This document shows positions 130 through 48,423 of a DNA stretch of 64,000 nt, in pieces. The stretch comes from Fimbriiglobus sp. (lineage in GTDB: Bacteria; Planctomycetota; Planctomycetia; Gemmatales; Gemmataceae), in the NCBI GenBank assembly GCA_025351325.1, contig JANXWE010000061.1:1-64000 (forward strand). Direction: 5' to 3'. Positions within the stretch are counted from its first letter, which is position 1, and the number at the start of each line of letters is the position of its first letter. The notes under the pieces were generated by a model that was not told the DNA's origin, made no database searches, and worked only from the letters and a program-made list of their open reading frames with translations. Made by a program: the position numbers and the translations under genes.

Positions 130-1485
130 TCAATATTCAAATGCACGGACGAGTTCAGAATGCGAAACCGTTTGCGATAGCATTCTGCTGCCGGGCGAGA
201 GACCGGTGCGAAGGATTTCCAATACGGGCTCAAGGTAGCGGACGGCGTCGGGTTCACATTGCCGAGCCAATCCCTTGGCCGCCATGTCGACGCAAAGGAT
301 GGCGACATTCAGAACGGTGGTGCCTGCAAAAGGAGTCGCTAATCCGGTGCGACTTGTCTGAGCGAACAGCGCGGGAAGTTCATCCGGAAGGAATCCTTCG
401 CAGAGTTCCGCCGCTTCGGTGAGGGCTTCGTCGTCGTAGAGCAACCCCTTCCAGAATGCGGGCACCACGAGCGCCAATGCCGGGCCGTTGGCGTCGGCTC
501 CACGTACTTCCAAGAACTGTTTCAGCCGGACTTCGGGGAACACCGTGGTGATGTGCATTTCCCAATCGGCGATTGTCGGGAACCGCCCATCGTGCCCGTT
601 CAGAATGAATTCTTGGAAGGTCATCCCGTCCGCCGCGCGATACAGGCCATGGTGATTGACGAAGAGCATCGGTACCGCCAAGAGGTATTGCACCCACTGG
701 TCGAAGCTCGGCCCGGCATTCAAAAATTCGGTGAGCAACCCGGAGCGATCCGGATCCATCCCGAGCCAGATTTGGCTGCGATATGAAGGAAAGCCGGTTG
801 CCTGGCCGGCATAGTGCGAGCTGTTGGCCCAAATCGCATTGATGATCGGGCTGAGTTTCAAAGCCACTGTGAACTTCCGCATGGCGTCCGCTTCGCAAGA
901 ATAGTCGAAGGTCACCTGCGTGCTGGCCGTGGCTTTCATCATGTGCAGTGCCATCGGGCAGCGACTCGGCAAATATTCGGCCATGAGCCGATGCCGTGGC
1001 CGGACGCCGAGCGCGATACCATCGGCGGATTGGAACGGTGAAACGCCGGATGCGATCCAGGCGACCGTATTGGGATCGGTGACCGCGCGGATTTCGTGAC
1101 GATGAGTAGCCAGGGCCGCATTCAATTCGGAAATGGTTTGCAACGGCGGCGTCGAAAACTCAATTTGCCCGCCCGGTTCCAGCGAAATCATCGACCCGGC
1201 CCGGCTGAGTGTCGTCAGATGCTCGCCTTCGAAATGGGGTTCCCAATGGAATCGTTCGACCAGCGAATTCAGAATCGAGCAGATGCCACCGGGTTCCCCG
1301 TAGGTCAGGTGGCGCCCGGTTCGGCGTTCGATGGCGAACTTCTCGAATTCGGCACCGACGCGCCAAGCCTCGCGCGGCTTCGCCCCGGCGTAAAAATAGT
1401 CGAGCAATTCCGACGACGTCACCGGTTCGGTTTGCAGGAATTCATCCAACTTCGGCAAATGAACGCTCACTTCACTACTCCCCAC
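130..1485 (-). CDS. glutamate-cysteine ligase, GCS2/EgtA-like family
   Basis: ORF 130..1536; likely start at MVGSSEVSVHLPKL. Motifs GAEFEKFAI, LEPGGQIEFSTPP, MKATASTQVTFDYS and YRSQIWLGMDPDRSG are typical of plant/actinobacterial-type GCLs. Confidence 0.85.
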   Translation of the reverse strand: MGSSEVSVHLPKLDEFLQTEPVTSSELLDYFYAGAKPREAWRVGAEFEKFAIERRTGRHLTYGEPGGICSILNSLVERFHWEPHFEGEHLTTLSRAGSMISLEPGGQIEFSTPPLQTISELNAALATHRHEIRAVTDPNTVAWIASGVSPFQSADGIALGVRPRHRLMAEYLPSRCPMALHMMKATASTQVTFDYSCEADAMRKFTVALKLSPIINAIWANSSHYAGQATGFPSYRSQIWLGMDPDRSGLLTEFLNAGPSFDQWVQYLLAVPMLFVNHHGLYRAADGMTFQEFILNGHDGRFPTIADWEMHITTVFPEVRLKQFLEVRGADANGPALALVVPAFWKGLLYDDEALTEAAELCEGFLPDELPALFAQTSRTGLATPFAGTTVLNVAILCVDMAAKGLARQCEPDAVRYLEPVLEILRTGLSPGSRMLSQTVSHSELVRAFEY

Positions 1486-1550
1486 CATCGTGACCGCCGA
1501 AGCAATCCTGATACACTCGAATAGAGAAACGCGCACGCGGAGCCAACCCT

Positions 1551-2507
1551 ATGTCGAAGTCCGGGCCGATGGCCATTTTTCACGAGCATCCCGACTGGTT
1601 CAAGCCGCTATTCGCGGAAATGGATCGCCGGGCGATTCCTTACGTTCGGCTCGACCCACGTGCCCACCAGTACAATCCCGCCGAAGCCAGTTCCCCATAT
1701 TCGTTGCTGTTCAACCGAATGAGTCCGTCGGCGTACTTGCGCGGCGGTCTCCAAGGGATGTTCTACACACTGGGTTACTTGGCCCACCTCGAACGATTGA
1801 ACGTGCCGACCGTGAACGGCTTGCGCGCGTTCACTTTGGAAACATCTAAAGCCCGCCAGCTCACATTACTTGAATCACTCAGCTTACCTTATCCGAAGTC
1901 GCGTGTGGTCAACCACCCCAGCCAAGCGGTGAGTGCTTGCGACGGCTTACGCTTCCCGATTGTCATCAAAGCGAACATCGGTGGCAGTGGAGCGGGAATT
2001 GTTCGGTTCGACACCATTGAAGATTTGGCTCGTGCGGCGAATGAAGACCGGCTCGATTTCGGAATCGACCACACGGCGTTGGTTCAAGAGTTTATTCCGA
2101 ATCGCGGCGGCAAAATCACCCGCGTCGAACTCTTGGGCGGCAAATTCCTCTACGCGATCAACGTCTTCACCACCGGGGACACGTTCAACCTCTGCCCGGC
2201 TGATATCTGCCATCGCAGCGATGGCGTAGCACTCGAGCGCTCGGCCTGCGCCGTGGATACCCCGAAAACAAAACTCAAAGTCGAAGGCACCGTGCCACCC
2301 GCCGAGGTCATCGCGGCCTGCGAGGCCATCATGCAAGCTTGCGGAATCGATGTCGGTGGCATCGAATACATGATCGATGATCGCGATGGTCAGCTGGTGT
2401 ACTACGACATCAACGCGCTGTCGAATTTCGTCGCCGACGCCAAGAATGTCATCGGGTTCGACCCGTTCTTGAAATTGGTCGATTATTTGGAAGTCGTACG
2501 CAATTAG
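1551..2507 (+). CDS. ATP-grasp domain protein (RimK/glutathione synthetase-like ligase)
   Basis: 318 aa; ATP-grasp-like FPIVIKANIGGSGAGIVRF, VQEFIPNRGGKITRVELLGGKFLYAI and metal-site-like VGGIEYMIDDRDGQLVYYDINALSNF. Confidence 0.8.
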   Translation: MSKSGPMAIFHEHPDWFKPLFAEMDRRAIPYVRLDPRAHQYNPAEASSPYSLLFNRMSPSAYLRGGLQGMFYTLGYLAHLERLNVPTVNGLRAFTLETSKARQLTLLESLSLPYPKSRVVNHPSQAVSACDGLRFPIVIKANIGGSGAGIVRFDTIEDLARAANEDRLDFGIDHTALVQEFIPNRGGKITRVELLGGKFLYAINVFTTGDTFNLCPADICHRSDGVALERSACAVDTPKTKLKVEGTVPPAEVIAACEAIMQACGIDVGGIEYMIDDRDGQLVYYDINALSNFVADAKNVIGFDPFLKLVDYLEVVRN

Positions 2508-41122: not shown

Positions 41123-44100
41123 TCACTTCGCCTGTTTTCCAGCAAGCGTCGTGATGTCTTTTTCGGACAGGGCACGCTTGTAGATGCGAATTTCGTCGAA
41201 CGACCCGAGGAACGATTTGCCCGGCAGGTGGTTGCTGACTCCCAGCGAGAACGTGTCGCAGCCGCCGTTGGCGGGGCCGGTGCCGGTTGCAGCAACGGTG
41301 CCATCGACGAACAACTGCATGGCACGTTTGCCGCCGGTTTCATCCCAGCTGAAGGCGACGTGGTGCCATTTGCCGTCGTCCAATCGCGGGCCTTTGGAGG
41401 CGGTGGTGCCCCACCCGCCTAAATCGATAAGCGGTTGGCCGTCGGCGAGCCAGAGGCCGAAGGTGCCTTGCAGAATCGGTTGTGTGGCTTGTTTGGTACG
41501 CAGCCAAAAGGCCATGGTGAAGTCACCCGCGATTTTCGCGCCGGGCAGATCCACGCGGATGCCGGGTTCGGCGAACTCCATCGCACCACCACGAACGCCA
41601 TCGGCTGGCAGCCAGCGCGGGATGGGTGGATTCATGAAAACCTCGAACGGGGCGTGCGCGGTGCCGACGCTGTCGTGGATCGTCCGGCCGTGGGCTTCGT
41701 CGAGCAGATACGCGGCGACGAGGCCATCGGTCATCGATGGGACGCTGCCGACGGTGGCGGCCCCGGCGGTGCCATCACCGCGGTAATCGGCGGTCGGTTT
41801 CAACTCGATTTTGCACGGGCCATTCTTCACGTCGACCGTGACATTGGCGGTCAGGGCGGCGGCGGGAATGGTGACTTCCCCGGCAGTCATCACAGCATCG
41901 GTGCCAGTCTGGCGGAAGCGGACGGTCATCGGTGTTGACTGCGGTTTGTCGAGTGTGAACCGAACCGCCGTTTTGTCCGCAATCACGCCGACAACGGGGC
42001 CGACGGACGAAGTATCGGAGTGGAGGTAACCAGTGGGTACGCGCTGCCAGGCTTTGGTGTTGCTGGCCCATGAGAACGCGAACTCCGGCTTGGCGAGGCC
42101 GGGCGAAGCGTACTCGATTTTCAGGTCGTAACTCTGGCCCGCGATGAGGCGGACGGGGGCAGATTCAAAGCGATTGTCGTCGGCGACGAGTACACCGTTG
42201 AGCCAGACGCGCGCAGAACCGGCACCCGCCTTCCACCACTGCGCCTGGATGAAAGAGGCGTCTGTTGTGCAATTGTAAATGCGGAACCAATAATCCTCGC
42301 TCAACGGCGCGACGAGTCGCCCGGTCCAGCGGACGCCGAAAGGCTCGGTAACAGCAATTCCCTTACACGGGCCAGCCGCCCAACTTGCGACACGTTTGTC
42401 TCCGGCACCGCTCGTGAACCAGAGTCGCGTATCAACCCGGCTGATGACGGGGGCGCCGGCGAAATCCTTGCCGCGGTAGTACGCCGCCGCCAGCCCTTTG
42501 CCGTCCGACACGGCGGTGGGCGGCGCTTGCTTCAGTTCGATTTTGCCCGACGCGCGAACCCAATTGTCCCAGCCGCGCACGTGAAACGCCGCAGTACGCC
42601 CAGCCGCGCGGGGCAGCCAGAGCACCGAGCCATCGGCCAGTTCGCCCAGCGAACCGGCGCACTCCCAATCGTCGCCCGCGAACAGGCCGCTGAGGCCGCG
42701 CCCGGCCGGCTCGTAGGCCCAGTCCGGCAAGTCCTTGGCGTGGCGGTCGAGGAACCACCCGGCGTACAGCCCGTCTTCGGTCCACGCCACCGCACCGTAG
42801 TGGTTCCGGTTGCTCGCGATGATGCAGCCGTGCGCGACGCCGGGGAAATATCCGGGGTGCCGCATCACCGCGCCGTCGGTCAGGCCGGGCGATTTTTGCT
42901 TCGAGACCGTCCACGCCGTTCCATCGGGCATCGCCCGCAACAGACACGACGTGCCGATGGTATCTTCGGGCCAAACGAGGCCGTGGCGGTCGGTCAGGCC
43001 GCCGATTTCCCCGCGCACCGCGATCGACAGACCGCCACGGGCATCGCAGCGAACCGCGACCGCGCCGACCTCGGTGCCGCGCAAATCGTCGGGCAACTGC
43101 GCCCGCGAAAGTTCGAGTTTGCTCCAGTCCCAGACCGGCGTTGCAGTACCCGCCTTAGCGAGGTTGGGGAGCTTCGCATACGCCGACCCTTTGAAGTCGA
43201 ACAGCAGCCAGCGTTTACCCGTGTAACAGTAGTTTTGCGCGCCGTTGAACCCGACATACACGTTGAGCTGGTCGTCGAATGCACAGTATCGTCCGTGCAT
43301 CAACGCGGCCGCTTTGTGGAAACGGAACTCCTCGGCGTCGATCGTGCCATTCCCGTTCGTATCCGACCACGTGAACGCATCGCTGCCCGCGTCGTCGTAG
43401 GTCAGCCCGGCCTTCGTCATCGCCGCGTTGATGGCCGCGTTCTTGAAGCTTTTGGCATCCCAGCGTTTGTGCGATGCCAACGCCACCGGTACCAATTTTC
43501 CCGCTGCAACATCGACCCGGAGAACTGCTGCCGGACTTTCGTGAACGAGGCACGTACCGCCCGGTCGGTGCCGCACCCGCCACACCGGGAAGTCGCTCGA
43601 TGTCGGGAATAGCCCATCACCGAAGCCAATTTCGGGCATCGAATACGTGTGCGTGATGTTCACTTTGCCGTTCTTCAAATCGAGCGCCGCCACCGCCATC
43701 GTCGTGTAACTGGCGTTGTACCAAAGCTCGTCCGGGGTCGCGGCGTCCACGCTCGTCACGGCGAAGAACGGTGTGCCACCGAGCCATACTTTGGTCACTG
43801 CACCCTTCGCGTTCACGTGGACGATACGACGCAAATGGTCGCTCTCCACGACGTAAAAACCGCCCGCGCCATCGCATCGCAAGTGCGATACATCACGGAA
43901 GTCGGTCGCCACATACGCGCCGTCCAGCCGACCGCCGAGCCGACCGAATGTGCCGATTAATTTTCCATCGAACGAGTACCGCAACACCCGTTGGTCGGCA
44001 CCCCCTTCCACGACGAAAAATTCCTGGCTCTTGGGGTCGAAGTCGAACGTCACCGGGGCCGTCAGCACACCTTTGCCGAGGATTTTCGCGACGGTTCCGT

Positions 44101-44962
44101 CCGACGCCACCGCCAGCAACTCGGCGCCGCTGAGTACGAATACCGTGCCCTTTTCGCCCGCCACGACCGCTTTCGGCTGCGGCACCGCAACTTCACGCAG
44201 AACCTTGCCCGTCGCCGGCGCGATCCACCGGAGCATGTTGTGTTCGCGGTACGCCACCAGCAAATTTTCCCCGTCCACACCGAGCTTGATGCCGTAGCTA
44301 TTCACCGCGTCGTCGCAACCGGTACGCTTGTCGCCGGGCCAGAGCAAATCGAGCGGCTTACCGTCATCGCCTCCCGTTGCCGCATTGACGCGTTGGAGTT
44401 CGCTGGTCCAGCCGAGCACGTACAGGTATTTGCCCATCTCGGCCATGTCCACCGGGCCCTTCGACTGCCAGCCGCGTGTCCACAACACCGGGCCGTTTTC
44501 GGACGCGAGCTTCATCAGCACCGGTGGCCCTTCGGAATTGCGGCTGCCGTGGTAGATCGCCCCACCCGCCCCGACGACGACCGTGGATGGCCCCTGATGG
44601 CTGCCCACCGTCCAGACCCACGGCTCCGCTGCGTTAATCGGAGTTTGCCCCACCACTGCGAGGTACTCGGCCTCCAGCCCGTCGTTAAGGAGCAACCGCC
44701 ATTCGTACGAACCAACCGGCATCGCGCGGCCCAGTCGATCCAACCCATCCCAGCCAAGCGTGTGTTCCCCCGCTGTTTGCGCTTCCCCCGATAGCAGCGT
44801 CCGCAGTTGCTGGCCTTTGCTGTCATAAACCGCGAGCGACACCTTCCCCGCACGGGGCAGCGTGTAGTTGATACTGGGCGTCTCCGCGACGACCGGTGAC
44901 TCCGCCAACAGGCAGACGAGCAATGCGAGTAACGTAAAGCGGATGACGAGGGAGCATTTCAT
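41123..44962 (-). CDS. large secreted protein with beta-propeller-like, PA14-like and C-terminal LamG-like domains
   Basis: Signal MKCSLVIRFTLLALLVCLLAESPVVA; PA14-like YWFRIYNCTTDASFIQAQWW...VWLNGVLVADD; LamG-like GDFTMAFWLRTKQATQPILQGTFG...WHHVAFSWDE...SFDEIRIYKRALS. Confidence 0.8.
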   Translation of the reverse strand: MKCSLVIRFTLLALLVCLLAESPVVAETPSINYTLPRAGKVSLAVYDSKGQQLRTLLSGEAQTAGEHTLGWDGLDRLGRAMPVGSYEWRLLLNDGLEAEYLAVVGQTPINAAEPWVWTVGSHQGPSTVVVGAGGAIYHGSRNSEGPPVLMKLASENGPVLWTRGWQSKGPVDMAEMGKYLYVLGWTSELQRVNAATGGDDGKPLDLLWPGDKRTGCDDAVNSYGIKLGVDGENLLVAYREHNMLRWIAPATGKVLREVAVPQPKAVVAGEKGTVFVLSGAELLAVASDGTVAKILGKGVLTAPVTFDFDPKSQEFFVVEGGADQRVLRYSFDGKLIGTFGRLGGRLDGAYVATDFRDVSHLRCDGAGGFYVVESDHLRRIVHVNAKGAVTKVWLGGTPFFAVTSVDAATPDELWYNASYTTMAVAALDLKNGKVNITHTYSMPEIGFGDGLFPTSSDFPVWRVRHRPGGTCLVHESPAAVLRVDVAAGKLVPVALASHKRWDAKSFKNAAINAAMTKAGLTYDDAGSDAFTWSDTNGNGTIDAEEFRFHKAAALMHGRYCAFDDQLNVYVGFNGAQNYCYTGKRWLLFDFKGSAYAKLPNLAKAGTATPVWDWSKLELSRAQLPDDLRGTEVGAVAVRCDARGGLSIAVRGEIGGLTDRHGLVWPEDTIGTSCLLRAMPDGTAWTVSKQKSPGLTDGAVMRHPGYFPGVAHGCIIASNRNHYGAVAWTEDGLYAGWFLDRHAKDLPDWAYEPAGRGLSGLFAGDDWECAGSLGELADGSVLWLPRAAGRTAAFHVRGWDNWVRASGKIELKQAPPTAVSDGKGLAAAYYRGKDFAGAPVISRVDTRLWFTSGAGDKRVASWAAGPCKGIAVTEPFGVRWTGRLVAPLSEDYWFRIYNCTTDASFIQAQWWKAGAGSARVWLNGVLVADDNRFESAPVRLIAGQSYDLKIEYASPGLAKPEFAFSWASNTKAWQRVPTGYLHSDTSSVGPVVGVIADKTAVRFTLDKPQSTPMTVRFRQTGTDAVMTAGEVTIPAAALTANVTVDVKNGPCKIELKPTADYRGDGTAGAATVGSVPSMTDGLVAAYLLDEAHGRTIHDSVGTAHAPFEVFMNPPIPRWLPADGVRGGAMEFAEPGIRVDLPGAKIAGDFTMAFWLRTKQATQPILQGTFGLWLADGQPLIDLGGWGTTASKGPRLDDGKWHHVAFSWDETGGKRAMQLFVDGTVAATGTGPANGGCDTFSLGVSNHLPGKSFLGSFDEIRIYKRALSEKDITTLAGKQAK

Positions 44963-45042
44963 GGAGAGGCTTGGGATTGTCGGAATCGAAAAATGGAACT
45001 CGCGGATCACTCCGACCCCTGACGGGGCCGGCTCGCCTGTTT

Positions 45043-45465
45043 CTACTCGATGATGCCATCTTCGTCGCATTCGCTCACGGCTTTGGGTACGAGCTTGATG
45101 AAATTGCGGGCGCTGTGGGCGATTTGTTTCTTGGTGACGCCGCCTTTGAGGACGATGGTGTAATCGAAGCAGAGGTCGCCGTCGTCTTCGATGCAGGCGC
45201 GGATCATGAGAAACTGATCGTTGACGCGGTTCACTAGCTCGAGTCGATCAATCCGTTGGGCGTCTTCCTTAATCCCGTAGAACGCAATCAGCCCGATCCG
45301 CTCCTTCGATTCGTGCAGGCTCACCCGGCACATGATGTCTTCCTTGAGCCGGAGCGAGCTGTTTTCTTCGTCCAAGGTCACGTCCATCATCGCGGCGTCG
45401 AAGAGATCCCGGAGCAATTCGAGCGACACGTTTTCAGGCGTCACCAGTTCGGCGGACGAAGTCAT
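45043..45465 (-). CDS. YbjN domain-like protein
   Basis: 140 aa; YTIVLKGGVTKKQIAHSARNFIKLVPKA, LVNRVNDQFLMIRACIEDDGDLCFDY. Confidence 0.6.
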   Translation of the reverse strand: MTSSAELVTPENVSLELLRDLFDAAMMDVTLDEENSSLRLKEDIMCRVSLHESKERIGLIAFYGIKEDAQRIDRLELVNRVNDQFLMIRACIEDDGDLCFDYTIVLKGGVTKKQIAHSARNFIKLVPKAVSECDEDGIIE

Positions 45466-45508
45466 GGTTTATCTCCGGTTCGGGATCGGATGGAATACAC
45501 CGGCGTTC

Positions 45509-45536
45509 TTGACGCCGCGAATACCCAGAGTACTAT
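45509..45536 (+). promoter_or_regulatory. putative nuo promoter
   Basis: TTGACG (45509-45514), 16-bp spacer, TACTAT (45531-45536). Confidence 0.35.
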
Positions 45537-45557
45537 TATCTAGGTAGAGCGTCCTTG

Positions 45558-45587
45558 CCTCGACATTCCGTCGAGGTTTGTTTTTTT
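45558..45587 (+). terminator. terminator-like hairpin in the nuoA leader (possible attenuator)
   Basis: CCTCGAC-ATTCC-GTCGAGG followed by TTTGTTTTTTT, lying between the putative promoter and nuoA. Confidence 0.65.
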
Positions 45588-45595
45588 GCAAGACT

Positions 45596-45613
45596 TTGTG
45601 AAAAAGTTCACAA
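45596..45613. promoter_or_regulatory. Rex (NADH/NAD+ sensor) operator
   Basis: TTGTGAA-AAAG-TTCACAA, exact match to the Rex consensus TTGTGAAnnnnTTCACAA; full inverted repeat GACTTTGTGAA...TTCACAAAGTC at 45592-45617. Confidence 0.75.
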
Positions 45614-45638
45614 AGTCACCGTAATCAAGGCAGAGTCC

Positions 45639-46082
45639 ATGGCTTCGCCCGACCTCGTGCTGACCCCTTCGGGCCTCGAACCGGCGTTCGACATCACGTC
45701 GTATTATTCGATCCTGATCTACGCGGTAGCGGTAGTGCTTCTCGCACTGGCGACACTGCTGGGCACTCACACGCCGATTTTGAAGCCGTGGAAGCCGACC
45801 AAAGTGAAGAACATGCCCTACGAATCGGGGATGGATCCGATTGGCTCGGCCCAAATGCAGTTCGACATTCGCTTCCATTTGATTGCAATTTTATTTCTCG
45901 TCTTCGACGTGGAATTGCTGTTTTTGTACCCGTGGGCGGTGATTGCCTACGGGGAGGGTGGCGACACGGTTTGGCAGTCGACCTTCGGGACGCTGGTCTT
46001 CGCCGAAATCCTAATTTTCCTGGCGACGCTCGGCATCGCTTACGTGTACGCTTGGCGCAAAGGGGTGTTCCAATGGCGTTGA
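45639..46082 (+). CDS. nuoA: NADH-quinone oxidoreductase subunit A
   Basis: [45 protein letters not shown]. Confidence 0.95.
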
Positions 46083-46675
46083 AAGTGGACGATAATATCT
46101 TCGTCAGCAAGCTCGATGATTTGGCGAACTGGGTTCGCAAACATAGCCTCTGGCCGATGCCGTTCGCGACCGCCTGTTGCGGGATCGAACTCATGGCCAC
46201 GGCCAGTTCCCGCTACGACTTGGCCCGCTTCGGCAGCGAAGCGATGCGGTTCACCCCACGGCAGTGCGACTTGATGATCGTCGCCGGGCGGGTGGCCATG
46301 AAAATGGTACCGGTGATGCAGCGGATCTGGTTGCAAATGCCGGAGCCGAAGTGGTGCATCAGCATGGGAGCTTGTGCCAGCACCGGCGGAGTGTTCGATA
46401 CTTATTCCGTGGTGCAAGGAATTGACCGCTTCATACCGGTGGATGTCTATGTTCCTGGTTGCCCACCACGACCGGAACAAGTGATCCGGTCGGTGCTCGA
46501 TCTCCAAGAGAAGATCCAAAAAGGTGGGACGATCAACGGCCGGGAATTTGCCCGCCGGGATACCTATGAAGGCCCCGGTGACCGCCTTGGCGAACTCGAC
46601 CCGTCGGAAGTCGTGATCGCACCCGGTAACTTCGCCACCGGCAAGCGGTTACGTGGGCTGCCACTGGTTTCGTAA
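46073..46675 (+). CDS. nuoB: NADH-quinone oxidoreductase subunit B
   Basis: [68 protein letters not shown]. Confidence 0.97.
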
Positions 46676-46700
46676 TGGATTGGAATTCCGGAAAGCGACC

Positions 46701-47195
46701 ATGAACCACCAAGAAGCGATCGACGCGAAGTTCGGAGCGGAATCGGCCATGCCGACCGAATTCCGCGACAACAAGCGGTTGACGGTGCCACTCGAGAAAA
46801 TCTACGGCGTTTTGGCCTTCTTGCAGGTGCAACGCGGCTTCGACATGCTCTGCGACCTCGCGGGCATCGATTACCTCGGCTACGCCGACGCGACGGATCG
46901 GTACGGCATCGTTTACTCTTTGACGAACACCAACAGTGGCGAACGACTGTTCGTGAAGACGTTCGCCAACGATCCTGATCCGGAAGTGCCGTCGGTGGTC
47001 GATCTTTGGGAAGCGGCCAATTGGATGGAACGCGAATTGTACGATCTGTTCGGTGTGAAATTCGCCGGCCACCCCGATTTGCGACGTATCTTGTTGCCTG
47101 ATGAATTCACAAGCCATCCGCTGCGGAAAGATTACCCGATGCGTGGCTACGGCGAACGTCATAACTTCCCGACCGTGACGCGAGCGGAGAGCTGA
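46701..47195 (+). CDS. nuoC: NADH-quinone oxidoreductase subunit C
   Basis: EVPSVVDLWEAANWMERELYDLFGVKFAGHPDLRRILLPDEFTSHPLRKDYPM. Confidence 0.95.
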   Translation: MNHQEAIDAKFGAESAMPTEFRDNKRLTVPLEKIYGVLAFLQVQRGFDMLCDLAGIDYLGYADATDRYGIVYSLTNTNSGERLFVKTFANDPDPEVPSVVDLWEAANWMERELYDLFGVKFAGHPDLRRILLPDEFTSHPLRKDYPMRGYGERHNFPTVTRAES

Positions 47196-47196
47196 A

Positions 47197-48423
47197 ATGC
47201 CATTGGAAGCAGTCGCCTCGCAATACGAAACGGGAACCGATCAAGAGTTCCTCTACACGCTCAATTTCGGGCCGCAGCACCCGGCTACACATACGACGTT
47301 GCGATTGGTTCTCACCCTCGACGGTGAGACCATCGTGAAGGCGGTGCCCGATATCGGCTACCTGCATTCCGGGTTCGAAAAGCTCGGCGAAGATTTGGAT
47401 TTCAATCAGTATGTAACGATTGTGGATCGGATGAATTATGTGTCGCCGGTGGCGAACGAAATCGCCTGGCATCACACCATCGAAAAGCTGATGGGTTTGG
47501 AAATCACCCCGCGCTGCAAGTACATCCGCACCATCCTCGCGGAACTCGCCCGCATCAGCGATCACCTGCTCTGCGTCGGGGCCGTGGCACTCGACCTCGG
47601 CGGCCTGACGGCGTTCCTGTACGCCTTCAACGAGCGCGAAAAAGTCTACGACATCATCGAGAACGCGTCGGGTCAGCGGTTCCACCCGAGTTACACCCGC
47701 GTCGGCGGGTTGATCAACGATGTCAACGACGATTTCGTGACGCAAGTGCGTGCTTTTGTGAAGTCGTTCCCGAAAGCACACAGCGATGTTTGCCGGTTGC
47801 TGAACAAGAATAAAATCTTCATCGACCGCACTCAGGGTGTTGGCGTGCTCACTCGCGAAGAAGCGATCAACCGCAGTTGCACCGGGCCGGTTGGCCGGGC
47901 ATCTGGGATCGCCCGCGACTTGCGAAAAGATGAACCGTATTTGGCCTACCCCGAGTTGCAGGGTGCCTTCAAAATCGTCTGCAGCAACGGTGGCGACTGC
48001 TTAGCTCGCTACCTTGTGCGCATGGGCGAGATGGTCGAATCGGTAAACATCATCGCCGCGGCCATCGAGAATTTGCCGAGCGGCCCGGTGAACATCGGCA
48101 CCGATAGCAATGTGGTGATTCCGGACAAATCGGCCACCTACCGCAGCATCGAAGGATTGATTCAACACTTCGAGTTGTTCATGTGGAACCGACGCTTCGA
48201 GACGCCGGTGAACGAGGTTTACGGAGCCAACGAGACGGCCAACGGCGAACTCGGGTTCTACGTGGTGTCCGATGGCAGCGCGAAGGCCTGGCGTGCCCGC
48301 ACCCGGCCACCGTCGTTCATCCACTTCGCCACGTTCCCACACTTGGTGGAGGGCCATCAGATTTCCGACGTGGCCGCGATTCTCGGGAGCCTGAACATCA
48401 TTGCCGCCGAACTGGATCGCTGA
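47197..48423 (+). CDS. nuoD: NADH-quinone oxidoreductase subunit D
   Basis: LNFGPQHPATHTTLRLVLTLDGE, GYLHSGFEKLGED, terminal ADVAAILGSLNIIAAELDR-like end. Confidence 0.96.
   Translation: MPLEAVASQYETGTDQEFLYTLNFGPQHPATHTTLRLVLTLDGETIVKAVPDIGYLHSGFEKLGEDLDFNQYVTIVDRMNYVSPVANEIAWHHTIEKLMGLEITPRCKYIRTILAELARISDHLLCVGAVALDLGGLTAFLYAFNEREKVYDIIENASGQRFHPSYTRVGGLINDVNDDFVTQVRAFVKSFPKAHSDVCRLLNKNKIFIDRTQGVGVLTREEAINRSCTGPVGRASGIARDLRKDEPYLAYPELQGAFKIVCSNGGDCLARYLVRMGEMVESVNIIAAAIENLPSGPVNIGTDSNVVIPDKSATYRSIEGLIQHFELFMWNRRFETPVNEVYGANETANGELGFYVVSDGSAKAWRARTRPPSFIHFATFPHLVEGHQISDVAAILGSLNIIAAELDR

Follow-up and report, generated by a model that had tools for sequence, protein, structure and literature searches.

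In Streptomyces avermitilis, nuo and atp are under direct control of the repressor Rex, which also binds hppA; nuoA1-N1, the atpI operon and hppA count among its direct targets, and its consensus is TTGTGAANNNNTTCACAA (PMC5355995). The operator there overlaps the -35 to -10 region, for which a block of the promoter or of early elongation has been proposed, and rex itself is a target (PMC5355995). Other repressors, including CcpA, CodY, PurR and LacI, bind downstream of the start and stop the elongating polymerase, which is released mainly by Mfd (PMC10310618, PMC4132739). In E. coli, readthrough is high at LacI roadblocks near the promoter, and removal of the stalled polymerase is mostly Mfd-dependent (PMC4132739). 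In leader attenuators such as trp/TRAP and the riboswitches, whether the polymerase reads through is set by a terminator within the 5' leader, and switching is by RNA folding or RNA-binding proteins. Termination by yeast RNA polymerase I (Pol I) combines a hairpin, a T-rich element and a Reb1/Nsi1 roadblock; the roadblocked polymerase is released by the nascent-RNA hairpin, and a roadblock 8 bp past the hairpin suffices for release (PMC12366685).

The locus described here lies in a window of 64,000 nt (the whole stretch of planctomycete DNA analysed). The genome belongs to the Gemmatales (Planctomycetota); most of the named relatives recovered by NuoA similarity are Gemmataceae, the closest being a Fimbriiglobus MAG. 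The nuo operon opens with nuoA, encoding NADH-quinone oxidoreductase subunit A (45639-46082, plus strand; Pfam PF00507, Oxidored_q4), followed in the same direction by nuoB, nuoC and nuoD (46076-48423, plus strand; PF01058, PF00329 and PF00346). Upstream of nuo, a YbjN-domain gene taken from the open reading frame list runs divergently (45043-45465, minus strand; PF10722), and beyond it lies a gene for a 1315-aa protein with FlgD-like Ig, PA14 and laminin-G-like domains (41123-45070, minus strand).

In the nuoA leader, the core TTGTGAAAAAGTTCACAA (45596-45613) matches TTGTGAA-N4-TTCACAA with no mismatches, and forms the centre of a palindrome (45592-45617) whose 11-bp arms, GACTTTGTGAA and TTCACAAAGTC (45592-45602 and 45607-45617), are a perfect inverted repeat. 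Between the 18-bp core and the nuoA ATG at 45639 are 25 bp. The exact consensus, the inverted repeat and the distance to nuoA had all been reported in a preliminary description of the sequence, and each was confirmed. Palindrome and spacing are those of the Staphylococcus aureus Rex operator, TTGTGAAW4TTCACAA, which is found at anaerobically induced genes (PMC2883068); the spacer of the planctomycete site is AAAG. The extra GAC/GTC flank of the palindrome is not conserved in an operator-aligned profile of relatives' nuoA leaders. The core is the only exact match to the consensus in the window, where about 0.00025 would be expected under a first-order Markov model, and the only one in the 5.09-Mb draft genome. 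A chance palindrome is rejected on this expectation and on conservation of the site before nuoA in Rex-bearing relatives.

A search of the full genome for a Rex homologue returned one protein of 243 aa, encoded on a different contig (G000:C232:1859-2587, minus strand; 1024-1755, minus strand, in L001). It matches the NCBIfam redox-sensing repressor Rex family NF003993 over its full length, with 227.9 bits against a curated cut-off of 217, exceeds the cut-offs of both PF06971 and PF02629, and matches Rex chains in the PDB with E-values down to 4e-39. Nine of the 12 DNA-contacting residues of Thermotoga maritima Rex (taken from PMC8836258) are kept, including R48, R60, G61 and Y64, and the Rossmann motif VGVGNLARA aligns with VGAGNIGRA. 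The recognition-helix residue K49, a lysine in T. maritima Rex and most other planctomycete Rex proteins, is replaced by arginine throughout the 30 Gemmatales Rex proteins compared, the operator being unchanged nonetheless. The gene adjoining rex (L001, 1817-3133, minus strand) encodes a Cys-rich repeat protein, and an exact Rex-like palindrome marks the start of a similar gene in another genome (G022; L336, 654-1925).

Rex was found in 69 of the 105 genomes of the order Gemmatales. In a scan of nuoA leaders across the order that allowed up to 3 mismatches, a site lay close to nuoA in 61 of 63 Rex-bearing genomes, and in 7 of 33 without detected Rex. All of these seven are draft assemblies with a completeness of 74-94%, and searching them with a profile likewise yielded no Rex. 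The other Rex-less nuoA leaders hold background matches only, except for a decayed 4-mismatch site in one genome, G028. Beyond the order, exact sites were present in three of four Rex-bearing planctomycetes, and no exact nuoA site was found in Rex-less ones. Pooled, 125 planctomycetes comprise 64 with both Rex and the nuoA operator, 51 with neither, 7 with the site only and 3 with Rex only (Fisher 1.5e-23, genomes being counted without correction for kinship); one of the three counted as Rex-only, G004, does carry the operator, together with a hairpin of the kind described below. On a tree of NuoA, a short protein, Rex changes 19 times, and of seven supported independent pairs on average 3.3 point in the same direction and 0 in the opposite one, too few for significance. 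The palindrome is kept upstream of nuoA in Rex-bearing relatives and mostly absent where Rex is absent; as predicted from sequence, it is likely to be a genuine operator of the planctomycete's own Rex. With Rex present and the operator tracking it, the site probably serves to place complex I under NADH-dependent control. The preliminary description had proposed such control, and Rex presence and operator conservation support it, but the account was incomplete: it took the site for an ordinary operator at a promoter, whereas the operator is one part of a composite with a terminator-like element that had been missed.

Besides the nuoA operator, the window's own genome has a single near-perfect site, with 1 mismatch, ahead of the F-ATPase operon, and in relatives sites occur before atp, act, hppA and the internal gene nuoJ. 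The act operon is alternative complex III-like, its first gene encoding a multihaem cytochrome resembling ActA; exact Rex sites precede act operons in many genomes of one large genus (L175, L186, L300-L321) and in another genus, but the window genome's own act operon (L329) has no Rex site with up to 3 mismatches allowed. Most 2-mismatch sites in this genome fall within long open frames and are probably due to chance. The nuoJ site is a second Rex site within the nuo operon of G006, directly before the gene (L180, site 2004), and G019 has a further site near nuoA, seen by coordinates only (G019:C176:21017). A conserved 1-mismatch Rex-like sequence, TCGTGAACAGTTTCACAA, stands before a gene resembling an HNH endonuclease (L176, 2002; L347, 1915). 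None of 30 Gemmatales rex genes checked has a Rex site in its leader, and autoregulation was rejected; a site next to rex occurs in one genus only, where rex and the F-ATPase operon point away from each other and have a single site in common (L333, 1745-2730). No planctomycete Rex regulon was found in the open literature.

The palindrome also contains TGTGA-N6-TCACA and so fits the consensus of CRP, which is nested in that of Rex. A CRP/FNR-family site in place of a Rex site is nevertheless very unlikely, as the site tends to occur where Rex does, relatives' nuoA operators keep the inner A and outer T that typify Rex sites, and the site lies downstream of, or abuts, the promoter, unlike CRP activation sites. 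Furthermore, the predicted targets nuo, atp and, in relatives, hppA match the proven Rex regulon of S. avermitilis (PMC5355995), and the site common to rex and the atp operon in one genus likewise argues for Rex.

Upstream of the operator, the aligned nuoA leaders revealed a second conserved block, GTCGAGG followed by Ts, which corresponds to the 3' arm of a hairpin and a T-tract. In the window, this terminator-like element (45558-45587) consists of a hairpin with arms CCTCGAC and GTCGAGG around ATTCC (45558-45576, plus strand; -12.6 kcal/mol including one extra flanking pair) and a G-interrupted T-tract, TTTGTTTTTTT (45577-45587, plus strand). A consensus scan placed a predicted nuo promoter at 45509-45536 (plus strand), with TTGACG at 45509-45514, a 16-nt spacer and TACTAT at 45531-45536; about 20 nt lie between the -10 and the hairpin, and ~50 bp separate the predicted start site from the operator that follows it. 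Promoter-like sequence, hairpin and T-tract had all been passed over in the preliminary description. The layout of hairpin, T-tract and operator was found in 54 genomes of the order, the window's included, spanning 28 genera in two families. A GC-rich hairpin, a T-tract directly after it and a covarying stem together make up the layout of an intrinsic terminator: across 53 sequences 92% of stem cells are paired and six of the seven pairs show changes on both sides, a level reached by none of 500 shuffles, with slid controls at 29-50%. Of 53 relatives, 43 have the T-tract broken by another base at one or other of two equivalent positions, and such an interruption is expected to weaken termination. 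The hairpin was rejected as a terminator of the upstream gene, since the YbjN-domain gene runs divergently, and as a known RNA family or riboswitch, as there was no Rfam match in 45400-45750 at E up to 1.

Rex could in principle act purely at initiation, on a second promoter that overlaps the operator with TTGTGA as its -35. Promoter-like matches between T-tract and nuoA do occur in 7 of 53 leaders (2.6 expected), and in Class A relatives the promoter abuts the operator. However, the profile is flat downstream of the operator, with no conserved -10; instead, a conserved TTGAC-16-TANNAT promoter precedes the hairpin in 38 of 53 composite leaders (shuffled sequences would give 1.16), and covariation of the stem implies that the hairpin is transcribed, which leaves the second promoter very unlikely. 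In composite leaders 43-67 nt lie between the end of the predicted -10 and the operator, so Rex would be too far away for promoter occlusion and would have to act on the elongating polymerase.

The distance from stem base to operator is 17 nt in 37 of the 54 genomes (by one rule), the gap in the window being 19 nt. This near-constant length is not due to general conservation, because the 8-nt spacer beside the operator varies in sequence among composite leaders and the distance from operator to nuoA hit ranges from 0 to 92 nt across relatives. Within the order, 15 Rex-site genomes have no hairpin, and the hairpin is therefore not obligatory for Rex control. In most hairpin-less leaders with a recognised promoter, the -10 ends 10-18 nt before the operator; the same promoter type abuts the same operator, and the ~45-nt hairpin module is missing. 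Two genomes of the same genus, G009 with the hairpin and G013, have promoter and operator in common and differ by the ~45 nt holding it, which identifies the hairpin as a module between the two. In those nuo leaders for which the first scan gave no operator, hairpin-like matches were confined to G004, which has both operator and Rex, G028, with a family-type hairpin and a decayed operator, and G058, where the sequence is unrelated. With few exceptions, G028 with its decayed operator among them, Rex-less nuo leaders have neither hairpin nor operator.

A covariance model of the composite, searched over 399 genomes of the class, matched 110, in one place each, and 55 of these 110 lie outside the order, in about ten families. 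Among 40 loci fetched, 35 precede nuoA and five precede nqrA, with NqrA confirmed by Pfam at three of the five. The nqrA loci, which belong to the Na+-translocating NADH:quinone reductase, show the same layout and are all outside the order (L444, L448, L432, L446, L411), two of them (L432 and L446) without a clear stem; a few of the fetched matches score mainly on operator and T-tract, likewise with no clear stem. Stem sequences differ greatly and gaps are mostly 17-18, although spacing outside the order is not independent support because the model used for finding the loci includes it. Rex is present in 103 of the 110 matching genomes and in 115 of the 289 others (Fisher 5.8e-25). Elsewhere in the class, the composite unit stands upstream of nuoA and, independently, of nqrA.

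The same features could reflect an ordinary Rex operator beside an independent, constitutive leader terminator, with Rex acting by simple roadblocking and the hairpin lowering basal readthrough or insulating the operon. Roadblocking and leader terminators are each known separately, the hairpin-less Rex-site genomes manage without the second part, and no hairpin of the nuo type was found at the Rex sites of act, hppA and atp operons where inspected. Such independence is nonetheless unlikely: the near-constant spacing of hairpin and operator across a variable spacer points to joint action, Rex-less genomes lose the hairpin together with the operator, the gene upstream of the hairpin is divergent, and the layout recurs at the non-homologous nqrA operon.

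Rex is thus probably an NADH-controlled roadblock that stimulates intrinsic termination in the nuo leader. From architecture, conservation, spacing, covariation and co-occurrence with Rex, we infer Rex binding, the NADH response and its direction, the stalling point, and termination with RNA release. At low NADH, Rex on the operator would block RNA polymerase with its active site in or near the T-tract; the hairpin would release the stalled polymerase, and transcription would abort after a few dozen nucleotides. As NADH rises, Rex would leave the DNA and the polymerase could pass the weakened T-tract, so that readthrough would yield the long nuo operon (or, in other planctomycetes, the nqr operon), whose products would reoxidise NADH. 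Given the general footprint of RNA polymerase, an operator 17 nt beyond the stem would bring a polymerase that has reached the release point into contact with Rex; bound Rex should therefore keep the polymerase within the T-tract or immediately upstream of it. Hairpin formation at the Rex-stalled polymerase would depend on the footprint of Rex. When bacterial polymerase terminates, ~8 nt separate the hairpin from the RNA end, and Pol I did not terminate efficiently at a bacterial LexA roadblock when the hairpin was so far off that backtracking was needed (PMC12366685), so geometry matters. A broader and reasonably likely reading is of a bacterial attenuator controlled by a metabolite sensor that sits on the DNA, in which the Rex roadblock would make a weak intrinsic terminator efficient, guarding the unrelated nuo and nqr operons and being widespread in the class around Gemmatales.

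Each of these parts is known, and the combination was not found described for bacteria in the open literature. The S. avermitilis regulon has the same consensus and the targets predicted here (PMC5355995), yet in the planctomycetes the nuo operator stands behind a terminator and the rex leaders checked are without a site. Strong comparative evidence extends Rex control of respiration to the Planctomycetota. With CcpA, CodY, PurR and LacI the proposed mechanism would share a repressor that stops elongating polymerase; the cases described in the portions of those sources drawn on here include none with an intrinsic terminator conserved where the polymerase stalls (PMC10310618, PMC4132739). If the proposal is correct, one element of measurable geometry unites a repressor roadblock with an intrinsic terminator, both of them textbook devices, and termination where the polymerase stalls would solve both roadblock readthrough and Mfd-dependent clearing. 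As in leader attenuators, a terminator in the 5' leader would decide readthrough, the candidate signal here being a repressor bound to DNA downstream. With Rex as the candidate roadblock, the sequence layout has the parts and order of Pol I termination; the likeness is an analogy in how the element would work and not homology. Pol I termination is eukaryotic and constitutive, occurs at gene ends, and has its hairpin ~20 nt from the stall with deep backtracking (PMC12366685), whereas the element described here is bacterial, lies in a leader and is potentially NADH-gated; if borne out, it would be a regulated bacterial counterpart of yeast Pol I hairpin-plus-roadblock termination, and one that is directly testable.
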